A stretch of 64,000 nt of DNA from Phormidesmis priestleyi ULC007 (GTDB lineage Bacteria; Cyanobacteriota; Cyanobacteriia; Leptolyngbyales; Leptolyngbyaceae): contig NZ_MPPI01000001.1 of NCBI RefSeq assembly GCF_001895925.1, positions 190,099 through 254,098 of the forward strand, read 5' to 3'. Made by a program: the position numbers and the translations under genes. Numbering within the stretch: the stretch's first letter is position 1; each line of letters opens with the position of its first letter. The notes under the pieces are model-generated. The model was not told the DNA's origin and ran no database searches. It worked only from the letters and a program-made list of their open reading frames with translations. Below are positions 55,664 to 61,031 of this stretch, piece after piece.

Positions 55664-57649
55664 TTAAGGAGTCCTGGGAGCAGGGAGGAGGACGCGAAAA
55701 CCGATGTTGTTGTTGCGGTCATCGCGCCTAGTCCTGTTGCGATACGCAGAACGGCAGAAGATAGGGTTGTTGCTCCAAGATCCGCCGCGCAGCAGACGAA
55801 GTGTATTTTCGCGATCGCTATCCAGTTCCCAAACCCGACCATCAGCAGGAGCATTGTCATAATTCTCATGCCAAGGATCAGCACACCACTCCCAAACGTT
55901 TCCGTGCGTATCATATAGCCCAAACGCATTAGGCGGAAAGCTGCCTACATCCGTTGTTTGTTTTCGGTAAACTCCTTTGGGAGAATCGCCATAAGTCTCG
56001 TTGCCGTCGTAATTTACCAAATCTGTTGTAATCGTTTCCCCAAAATGAAACGGCGTTGTCGTTCCTGCGCGGCAAGCGTATTCCCATTCGGCTTCGCTGG
56101 GTAGACGATAGGTTTTCTCAGTTTTTTGGGAGATGCGATCGCAAAACTCAACGACCTCATCCCAAGACACTTGTTCAACAGGTCGATTTGCTCCTTTGAA
56201 GTTTGACGGGTCGGGATCGAGATCAAGATTGATTTTGGGGAGACTTGCGATCACGCTCCACTGCGCCTGAGTGATCGGATACTTGCTCATGAAGAAGGGT
56301 GCGATCGTCACCTTATGCGGTGGCTTTTCACCGTCATACTCCATCGAACCCATCGTAAATGAGCCGCCCGGAATCGAGACCATATCTAGCTTGAGAAAGT
56401 CTTCTGTAAAATATTCAGCACGACCGGGACGAGTTTGAGTTGTCAATTTCTTCTGCCCAAACAAGCCCGATTTCTGCTGCACTTCTAAGGTGACAATATC
56501 AAACTCGAACGTTGAGACAGTTCGCGGGGTTGGTGGAGCAGGACGAGGAATAGAAGGCTCAACTGGTGGAGGAGCAGGGCGAGATTTAAGGACGCGCTGC
56601 TCGATCGCGCCCACATTTTCATCCGTGAGATTGAGATCTTTTTGCAAGGCTTTGAGTTCTTGACGAGTCCGATCGCTTAACGGAGACTCGATCGCAATCT
56701 CTTCTTGCAAAACCTCTTCATATTCCTGCAAATTGCGCTGATGCTGGAGATAAGGTTCTAAAACTTCAGCCTCGATCGCGGCGGCTTCTGCGATCGTGAG
56801 GTTGAGAGACTGCGATCGCCGATTCAACACACGCCGCCCAGCAGGACGAATGATTCCGTCTTGGCTAAATTCCTCAACCGTCGATCGATACAGCAACTTT
56901 GGATCACTAATCGGCGCATTTGCCAGAAAGATTTTCTCACCCTCTTGCAGAATATATCGCTGAGGACGCATCGAAGGAGCGGCTTTGCTCACTCTAGCTT
57001 TGGCACAATCGTGCAACTCATTGACCGAAACCTTGCCATCGCGATCGAGATCCGCCGCCCCAGTTTCAATGCCTTCGACCAAATAGCGAGTATAGACCGC
57101 TAACTCTTCTCCCTTGCGCTCAAACGAATATTCCACCGCCGAAGACGACGTAAGCACAATCCGACCTTCGCCGCCCAACTGCTGCTTAAAGTCGATCGCC
57201 CCTTCTGCATCTCTAGCAATCATGCCCTCGCCAAACGCGCCACTGTTGCAACAATCTAAAATCACAACCTGGCGATTAGAGGTGCAGTTTTCCATCACAT
57301 CATGCACAAAACTAGCCGGAACAGCCGTTCCTTTGTTGAGCTTGCCTTGCGAATTTTTTCGGGTGCTGCAATTGGTGAAATAGAACTTGCCAAACTCATC
57401 CGTGATGCCATGCCCAGAAAAATAGAGCAGCAGCAGATCATCTTCATGGCAATTGTCGAACAAGGTCGAAATTTCATTTTGCATCGTCAGCAAATCAGGA
57501 TTTTGAAGCGGTGTCACCCGATCGAATCCGCCAATCTCTGGATGTTGCAAAACCCGCCGCATTGCCTCGACATCGTTCGCCGCCGCAGGCAATGGGTTTA
57601 ACCCCGGCTCATATTCACTCACCCCAATCAACAGCGCAACTTTTGCCAT
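55664..57649 (-). CDS. Caspase-FGE-sulfatase fusion protein with a DGR-like C-terminus
   Basis: The protein is 661 residues from the ATG at 57649 (MAKVALLIGVSEYEPGLNPL); further-upstream Met codons lie inside the neighbouring gene. A C14 caspase domain comes first, with His in YFSGHGI (residue 80) and Cys in LDCCNSG (about 134). An EF-hand-like DLDRDGKVSVNEL follows near 215. A linker with a Pro-rich stretch precedes a formylglycine-generating-enzyme-like (C-type-lectin fold) domain from about residue 420 (MVSIPGGSFTMGSMEYDGEK, RLPSEAEWEYACRAG, GLYDTHGNVWEWCAD). The end, GGSWSNNPIFCRSAYRNR through NNNIGFRV, resembles retroelement-diversified variable regions. The EACC1-like gene lies 4 bp upstream. 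The role is probably recognition coupled to proteolysis. Confidence 0.92.
   Translation of the reverse strand: MAKVALLIGVSEYEPGLNPLPAAANDVEAMRRVLQHPEIGGFDRVTPLQNPDLLTMQNEISTLFDNCHEDDLLLLYFSGHGITDEFGKFYFTNCSTRKNSQGKLNKGTAVPASFVHDVMENCTSNRQVVILDCCNSGAFGEGMIARDAEGAIDFKQQLGGEGRIVLTSSSAVEYSFERKGEELAVYTRYLVEGIETGAADLDRDGKVSVNELHDCAKARVSKAAPSMRPQRYILQEGEKIFLANAPISDPKLLYRSTVEEFSQDGIIRPAGRRVLNRRSQSLNLTIAEAAAIEAEVLEPYLQHQRNLQEYEEVLQEEIAIESPLSDRTRQELKALQKDLNLTDENVGAIEQRVLKSRPAPPPVEPSIPRPAPPTPRTVSTFEFDIVTLEVQQKSGLFGQKKLTTQTRPGRAEYFTEDFLKLDMVSIPGGSFTMGSMEYDGEKPPHKVTIAPFFMSKYPITQAQWSVIASLPKINLDLDPDPSNFKGANRPVEQVSWDEVVEFCDRISQKTEKTYRLPSEAEWEYACRAGTTTPFHFGETITTDLVNYDGNETYGDSPKGVYRKQTTDVGSFPPNAFGLYDTHGNVWEWCADPWHENYDNAPADGRVWELDSDRENTLRLLRGGSWSNNPIFCRSAYRNRTRRDDRNNNIGFRVLLPAPRTP
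55691..55789 (-). other. Candidate DGR variable region
   Basis: The final 33 codons of the FGE domain include many AAC codons (three in a row before ATCGGTTTTCGC). At other positions where such proteins carry AAC there are AGC, ATC, TTC, TAT, ACT or GAT, the pattern expected from adenine-specific mutagenesis. No template copy and no reverse transcriptase are in this window. Confidence 0.45.
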
Positions 57650-57653
57650 AGGG

Positions 57654-58034
57654 TTACATCGACTGCGAGAGCCGCTTAATCGTTTCTTCAGCCGCCGCCA
57701 GTTCTTCGCGACTGCTGACTTCAAGCTCTATTTCTCGACCATCGGCAAACTTGGCTTTAATTTTGATCGGTTTGTTTCCCAATCGATCGCCCACAAATCC
57801 AAATAAGTTTTTGAGGCTGGCAACACTCACTTCCGCTTGCAGCAACCCCCAGAGAAACGCACCCAGAGCGCGGTTTCCTTCGGGTGGATTGGGGTCGGCA
57901 ACGCGATCGACCTTAACGCCTTCTAGCGATCGCATCTGTTGCCAGAGAGTTTGCGTCAGTTTTTCCTGCTTTTCAGGGCTAAGATCCGGGTCTTGAAACG
58001 TAAAGGTAAGCTCAACATTGGGGGCGATCGTCAT
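57654..58034 (-). CDS. EACC1-like effector-associated protein
   Basis: The 126-residue protein has the features I know from effector-associated constant component 1: an N-terminal strand, a helix (EKLTQTLWQQMRSLEGVKVD), a Gly- and Leu-rich middle (RALGAFLWGLLQAEVSVASL), then GNKPIKIKAKFADGREIELE and a final helix (EELAAAEETIKRLSQSM). EACC1 genes are adaptor components next to caspase, trypsin or other effectors in predicted conflict systems. Here the caspase-FGE gene follows after 4 bp, exactly that arrangement. The match is by eye, and molecular function is unknown. Confidence 0.72.
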   Translation of the reverse strand: MTIAPNVELTFTFQDPDLSPEKQEKLTQTLWQQMRSLEGVKVDRVADPNPPEGNRALGAFLWGLLQAEVSVASLKNLFGFVGDRLGNKPIKIKAKFADGREIELEVSSREELAAAEETIKRLSQSM

Positions 58035-59195: not shown

Positions 59196-59341
59196 GATAG
59201 ACGAGTCGATAGAAGGAATTGACTGTGCAAAATACTGAATTGACGAGTCAATAGAACGAATTGACTGTGCAAAACACTGAATAGACGGGTCAATAGAACG
59301 AATAGACAGGTCAATAGAACGAATTAACTGTAGATGACACT
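59196..59341. repeat. Degenerate tandem repeat, 42-bp unit built from 21-bp halves
   Basis: Three units (59196-59236, 59237-59278, 59279-59341) repeat GAATTGACGAGTCAATAGAA followed by CGAATTGACTGTGCAAAACA. The third has an extra 21-bp half, so lengths are 41, 42 and 63 bp. The half-unit contains TTGACGAGTCAA, a near palindrome. No coding role is evident. Confidence 0.85.
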
Positions 59342-59394: not shown

Positions 59395-61031
59395 TTATTG
59401 AGCGCGCCTCCAGTCATGCAAGGGAGAATAGAGCGATTGGTAACGATGCCAAGCAGCTTCTAGCTCTGGGGTGACAGTGTTTGGAGTAATGACTCGATCG
59501 TAACCCGCCTCCAGCTTGGGAACAGTAGAAAGGCTGCGGTAGATCTCCGTTCCTAACCCTGCTAAAATTGCCGCCCCTCGACTAGAAGCCGCAGACATAG
59601 TTAGAGGATGAAGCGGCACTTGCAGCACATCTGCAATCAGTTGTTGCCATACAGGATCGATCGTACCGCCGCCTGTCAGATTGAGCGCTGGCACCGAAAT
59701 GTTGATCGCCGTCATTGCCTCTAAACCTTGCTTCAGCGAAAACGCAACGCCTTCTAGCGCCGCCCGCATTAAGTGCGATCGGGAGTGGTGCAGCCCCAAA
59801 CCAACCCAGGCACCTCGCGCATTAGGATCAAGATGCGGCGTTCGCTCTCCGGTCAAATAAGGTAAAAACGTCAGTCCTTCACACCCCGCAGGAACGGCAA
59901 ACGCTTGAGTATAGACTTGCTGCCACGTCAGACCCAACATATCGCGCACCCATTCCAATGCCAAGCCAGCATTTTGGATGGCGGCGAGTGCATACCACTG
60001 TTGAGGCAACGCCGATCGATACAAATGAGTGTGTTTTCGAGGATCAGCGATCGGCTGATCGCGAAGGCTAACGATTTGGGCACCTGTTCCGATCGTCAGT
60101 TGCACTACTCCCGGATTCACAACACCACTTCCGAGAAGAGCGGCGGCTGTGTCGGCGGCTCCAGTGACTACAGGCAAACCAGGAGGCAAGTCTAGATGTT
60201 CTGAGGCTTCGGGGGTTAGATGTCCCGCAATACTGCTAGACGGAATTAGTTTAGGAAGCCAATCCGATCGCAGATTCAACGCATCGATGATGGTGGATGA
60301 CCAGCGGTCTTTGCTGACGTTATAAAGGGTGCGACCTCTACCTGATACTAAAGTGACTCAAGCCTCCTGCTGATAAGGTTTTTGAACGATTTCACAGTAG
60401 TCTTTTTGATTATTCATTGATCAATTTTACAGGCACTCAAAACCCTTATGGAGCAAAAGGTAATCGGTTTTTTCCAATGTATCGGATGGAGGTCGCACCC
60501 GTTATAAAGCAGTGTGCCTGATGCGTCGGAGGGGTCTGTGGCGACTTCTCCCGTCAGACGAAATCGCAGCCAATCTTTCGGCTGAAGTGCCCATCGAGCG
60601 TTGGTGTAAATATCTCGTTCATATTTGCGAAACCAGAGCAAACTCGTTCCTGCCATTCCGGTCGTGATTGGGTTGGCGAGTTTAGAGTGCAGACCCGACC
60701 CGATCGCGTGATAGGCGTAGAGCATTTCGCTCGATCGCGTATCTGCCCAAAGAATTGCCGGGTAGAGCGGTTGGGCGTTTGCATCGGTCAAGACGACTCC
60801 GTGCATCTGCCCCGATAGCCCGATCGCTCGAACATGTTTTCGGTGATCTTGAACCGCAGACTTAACGGCGATCGCCACCGATGCCCACCAATCTAACGGA
60901 TTGATCTCCGCCCATCCCGGTTTAGGCGTTTGCACCAAATAGCGACTCGACGATTCAGCAATGATTTTGCCATCATTGCCCAGCAACACCGCCTTCACCG
61001 AACTTGTTCCTAAATCAATGCCCAGCAGCAT
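59395..61031 (-). pseudogene. xylB: Xylulokinase (FGGY kinase) gene split by an inverted-repeat element
   Basis: The N-terminal part (from the ATG at 61031) reads MLLGIDLGTSSVKAVLLGND, with LSGQMHGVVLTDANAQPLYP and ILWADTRSSEM, as in xylulokinases. It runs to ASGTLLYN and then into the element, where it stops at 60414. The C-terminal part continues after the element as NVSKDRWSSTIIDALNLRSD with GAADTAAALLGSG (catalytic Asp region) and NLTGGGTIDPVWQQLIADVL. Deleting the 172-bp element and one 10-bp target copy (182 bp) restores one continuous frame of the length typical for the family, about 485 residues. The enzyme would have phosphorylated D-xylulose; it is most likely inactive now. Confidence 0.92.
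60328..60499. mobile_element. 172-bp MITE-like element inside xylB, with 10-bp target duplication
   Basis: The ends GGTGCGACCTC (60328-60338) and GAGGTCGCACC (60489-60499) are perfect inverted repeats, and the similarity extends to 21 bp with three mismatches. Both sides carry the direct repeat CGTTATAAAG (60318-60327 and 60500-60509). The inside is AT-rich and has no gene. A transposase acting in trans must have moved it; a 10-bp duplication would fit IS4-like families, but I cannot name the parent. Confidence 0.93.

Follow-up and report, generated by a model that had tools for sequence, protein, structure and literature searches.

In Phormidesmis priestleyi ULC007, a xylulokinase-like (FGGY kinase) gene on the minus strand of a 64-kb stretch of DNA, here called the window, is broken by a short non-coding insertion. 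The 5' part of the gene (60501-61031, minus strand) comprises its first 177 codons and matches the Pfam family FGGY_N, and its reading frame runs on for 28 more codons inside the inserted element to a stop at 60414. The 3' part (59395-60326, minus strand) matches FGGY_C, and its frame has no stop codon between the insertion point and the normal end of the gene. Taking out 182 bp leaves a single open frame of 484 amino acids that begins with the ATG at 61031, whereas with the insert present the product would be 205 amino acids long, the first 177 being common to both versions. Against the xylulokinase model TIGR01312 the 3' and 5' parts score 226.2 and 182 bits, respectively; the cut-off of this model, 380.25, is a whole-protein value and is reached by neither half. 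Since the remainder of both frames is open, the split gene has undergone no further decay, and both proposals of the initial annotation of this DNA, that removal of 182 bp restores the frame and that the gene is otherwise undamaged on either side, are borne out. The extra 182 bp put the rest of the gene out of frame, and translation would end after 28 codons supplied by the element; very probably, therefore, the gene is inactive, with a predicted loss of enzyme function. The genome has a second FGGY kinase-like gene at C102:194995-196383, which scores 224.3 bits against the XylB model, below its cut-off, and loss of the split gene may therefore be tolerated.

The surroundings of the gene show two further features. 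Just downstream of it, at 59197-59324, lies a short tandem array that can be read as 2.6 copies of a 42-bp unit or 6.1 copies of a 21-bp unit. Further along, at 55664-57724 on the minus strand, is a gene whose 686-aa product combines a caspase-like and an FGE-sulfatase domain and matches the PADLOC 'caspase' model. It is overlapped by a gene for 126 amino acids (57654-58034) that has no Pfam match and resembles the small partner genes of caspase-like conflict systems in bacteria.

The inserted element is a MITE of 174 bp at 60327-60500 (plus strand), bounded by 12-bp perfect terminal inverted repeats, GGGTGCGACCTC, at 60327-60338 (plus strand) and 60489-60500 (minus strand); 21 of the outer 31 bases match between its ends. 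It is flanked by an 8-bp target-site duplication, GTTATAAA, at 60319-60326 and 60501-60508. Its size (below about 500 bp), the stops in all six frames and the lack of a transposase gene are those of a MITE, and it occupies the only site in the window at which an 8-bp direct repeat encloses 100-399 bp of sequence whose ends are perfect 10-bp inverted repeats. The initial annotation had placed the split correctly, but had described a 172-bp element with 11-bp inverted ends and a 10-bp duplication. Indeed, CGTTATAAAG is present at both 60318-60327 and 60500-60509, with 172 bases in between whose ends are inverted. However, in the window a C precedes the left duplication and a G follows the right one, and these are the same as the end bases of the element, so that the apparent 10-bp repeat arises from a chance equality of flanking and terminal bases. 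Comparison of copies decides between the two descriptions: the 174-bp borders are the same in all 14 full-length copies in the genome, and with the outer G and C assigned to the element nine of the 14 give a duplication of exactly 8 bp and one gives 9 bp. The 172-bp element with a 10-bp duplication is accordingly rejected.

The search for further copies that the initial annotation had suggested gave 18 matches in the genome, namely 14 at full length, one truncated by the end of its contig (C72:1-115, 98% identity) and three that match, in part only, and belong to a second family. The full-length copies lie at different sites and are 98.9-100% identical to the window copy, with 0-2 differences; nine of them, the window copy included, are identical to one another, and the others are within 2 nt. 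Exact duplications flank 10 of the 14, the single 9-bp case being L007, and in L011 seven of eight duplication bases agree. No duplication is present at the remaining three full-length copies (L003, L005 and L014). L003 and L005 have a left flank in common, as do L014 and the truncated copy L015, and copies that have recombined, or repeats that affected the assembly, are the likely reason for these shared flanks. The second family consists of three copies of a 172-bp MITE (L016, L017 and L018; C103:203804-203975, C62:58677-58848 and C45:1777-1948), with the same ends as the 174-bp family and an interior that can be aligned with it.

Other genes appear to have been split in the same way. At five of the 14 full-length copies (L001, which is the xylulokinase case, L004, L008, L009 and L012), long open frames of at least 86 codons, running in one direction, abut the insertion on either side. 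Open frames flank L014 as well, but this copy was left out of the count as it has no duplication. In two of the five, the two halves match the same family, FGGY kinase in L001 and RmlD in L004. One half only is matched in L008 (TPR), and Pfam gave no family for either half of L012 or for the one half of L009 that was searched, so that L008, L009 and L012 are only probable as MITE-split genes.

An empty site in a relative had also been proposed as a check, and one exists. P. priestleyi BC1401 has an unbroken orthologue (L094) with 81% DNA identity (1252 of 1547 aligned columns), in which the insertion site reads TTTATAACG, with no insert. In another genome of the genus, G001, the sequence matches in two pieces, one on either side of the site, and these overlap by exactly the 10 bases found twice around the insert in the window. 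The corresponding sequence of G001 (L095) is 100% identical to that of BC1401 over 3428 bp; G001 is strain BC1401 itself or one very near to it, and the two count as one witness rather than two. Copies of the element are nevertheless present at other sites in BC1401/G001: five were found, three of them with exact 8-bp duplications, and they are 84.5-85.6% identical to the ULC007 copies and 93.7-99.4% identical among themselves. Among the 144 genomes of relatives searched, the element is present in three, namely ULC007, G001 and a further member of the same family, G008, and a search at the level of the order matched the same three genomes of 42. Between species, elements and host gene have diverged to a similar degree (about 85% and 81-86% similarity, respectively), while the ULC007 copies are nearly identical, which suggests inheritance of the element from a common ancestor followed by a separate recent burst in ULC007. 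The identity of the window copy to eight others marks its insertion as young. In both relatives a MITE copy also lies inside a copy of the transposase gene of the partner insertion sequence described below (L117 on C118 of G001 and L108 on C292 of G008); L117 has no flanking duplication, and the sequence of L108 stops within the MITE.

A transposase-bearing element with matching ends, for which the initial annotation had suggested a search, was identified within the same genome. In a search with the end pattern, both ends occur 1386 bp apart at a single place, C69:7061-8446, and this insertion sequence (IS) contains one open frame, encoding a transposase of 434 amino acids that passes the cut-off of the NCBIfam ISKra4 model NF033572 (227.3 bits against 205). 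At E<=0.001 this protein matches nothing in Pfam, and there is no duplication around this complete IS. The outer 12 bases are the same in both MITE ends and both IS ends, with an end motif finishing in GCACCC. By BLAST the MITE and the IS share 14 bp exactly at each end, and a looser likeness can be followed by eye to about base 22. The ends of the IS itself finish in a terminal C and are identical to each other over 12 bp, with imperfect similarity further in. The two-ORF transposase with a -1 frameshift that is a feature of the ISMich2 subgroup is absent from the C69 IS, the 434-aa frame being single. A related multi-copy IS, whose protein is 87-88% identical in the part readable on contigs C54 and C102, has its copies at contig ends, where they break the assembly and leave the middle unassembled. 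Nine of its left ends, with seven different flanks, were compared with nine different right ends, an end listed under a second locus being left out, and four left/right pairs showed exact duplications of 8, 8, 9 and 9 bp. The same flank occurs at the IS end in two contig pairs, the starts of C101 and C118 and the end of C57 with the start of C102; these may be contig ends that the draft assembly contains twice, or real duplications. According to PMC3942029, the ISKra4-type superfamily is characterised by inverted repeats of 18-39 bp, a conserved terminal C and direct repeats of 8 or 9 bp, the ISKra4 family corresponds to p-MULT 4 of the Mutator-like DDE transposases, and members of the superfamily group are reported to occur in Cyanobacteria.

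Taken together, duplication length, terminal base and end sequence indicate the same transposase for the MITE and the IS. We are highly confident in a reading in which the ends of the 174-bp MITE are recognised by an ISKra4-family transposase of the same genome, which moves the MITE in trans, makes an 8-bp duplication on insertion and in this instance split the gene. In the proposed sequence of events, the transposase of an ISKra4-family (prokaryotic Mutator-like) IS would recognise the MITE ends and carry the MITE to a new site, and a staggered cut of 8-9 bp would yield the duplication GTTATAAA within the xylulokinase-like gene. The movement in trans is inferred from these shared ends and duplications, and the MITE may still be mobile today. 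The central proposal of the initial annotation, a recent insertion of a non-autonomous element, thus holds, being upheld by the 14 near-identical full-length copies, the unoccupied site in a congener and the same-genome IS with matching ends; the contrary observations that it had named, relatives with the same split between long-diverged flanks, or a lack of both further copies and matching transposase ends, did not materialise. A derivation of the MITE by deletion from the IS that was read is rejected, as similarity ends after the termini.

An 8-bp duplication is common to several transposase families and is not, by itself, specific to any one of them, so that the MITE might instead have been moved by an unrelated transposase of another family with this duplication length, such as ISL3. 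In a Microcystis study, a 187-nt MITE with 8-nt repeats that splits a gene for a sulfate-binding protein was assigned to an ISL3-family IS by its matching ends (PMC11448079). In ULC007, however, the single complete IS found with the ends in question has an ISKra4 transposase, the readable contig-end copies match the same ISKra4 protein, the ends are identical over 12 bp and the duplications fall in the same 8-9 bp range, and we judge the involvement of another family to be very unlikely. Less probable again is that the insertion is an assembly artefact or chimera and that the gene is intact in the organism. The draft genome is in 118 contigs and related repeats do cause contig ends, but the window copy is far from the ends of contig C30 and has an exact 8-bp duplication, and nine other copies have exact duplications of their own, each different, which misassembly would not produce. 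Least probable of all, to the point of being negligible, is that the insertion is old, or that the gene retains it as a functional element such as an RNA-level regulator or a spliced insert. The element does fold into a long hairpin, more stable than shuffled sequences (z of -6.68 and -5.57 for the two strands), and its family is retained in related species, but such a hairpin is expected from nested inverted repeats, the region 60200-60650 has no Rfam match at E<=1, the BC1401 site is unoccupied and the window copy is young. A role as a structural RNA was likewise rejected after RNAalifold on five sequences gave 39 pairs, four of them changed on both sides: inverted repeats give such pairs anyway, and the outermost pairs belong to the nearly invariant terminal repeats.

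Beyond movement in trans by the ISKra4-family transposase, a broader reading can be put forward, tentatively and as a whole rather improbable, in which the association of the MITE with its ISKra4 partner predates the divergence of the species in this Phormidesmis group, the MITE represents an undescribed family, and its interior may serve transposition or protect the element. The suggestion concerning the interior stems from its being unrelated to the IS, yet alignable between two families and among three genomes, and from its containing an inner stem. A search of viral contigs with an exact 24-base interior pattern found nothing.

The resemblance to the ISKra4 family lies in an IS that passes the NCBIfam cut-off, ends that finish in C and duplications of 8-9 bp, in contrast to which the MITE lacks a transposase and has only its ends in common with the IS. 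As described in PMC11448079, the 187-nt MITE of Microcystis aeruginosa PCC 7806 is comparable in being non-autonomous, of similar length, present in many identical copies, flanked by 8-nt duplications, gene-splitting and matched to an IS by its ends, but its ends are GGCTCTTCG and its partner is of the ISL3 family, as opposed to GGGTGCGACCTC and ISKra4 here. Judging by the title of the paper alone, as cited in the review PMC10969869, the Nezha MITE is also a short active cyanobacterial MITE, and the same review cites inactivation of the microcystin cluster by a MITE in Anabaena. Gene-inactivating MITEs are thus established in cyanobacteria, and the present element is of the same kind with another partner family. 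No description of a MITE tied to ISKra4 in cyanobacteria was found in the open-access literature, most subscription papers and ISfinder being outside the scope of this search. Within that literature we know of no description of this MITE itself; the ISKra4 and MITE papers, including PMC9208149, do not concern such an element, judging by titles and the openings of abstracts, and among the matches listed in a literature search with the end sequence none was on mobile elements by its title. The event is therefore ordinary in kind, and the MITE family is new as far as the open-access search reaches.

The corrected borders matter for the building of search models or for excision assays. With its partner IS, an unoccupied site and many sister copies at hand, the split xylulokinase-like gene of P. 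priestleyi ULC007 is a clean case of the disruption of a cyanobacterial gene by a MITE, and a ready system for testing how an ISKra4 (Mutator-like) transposase handles miniature elements.
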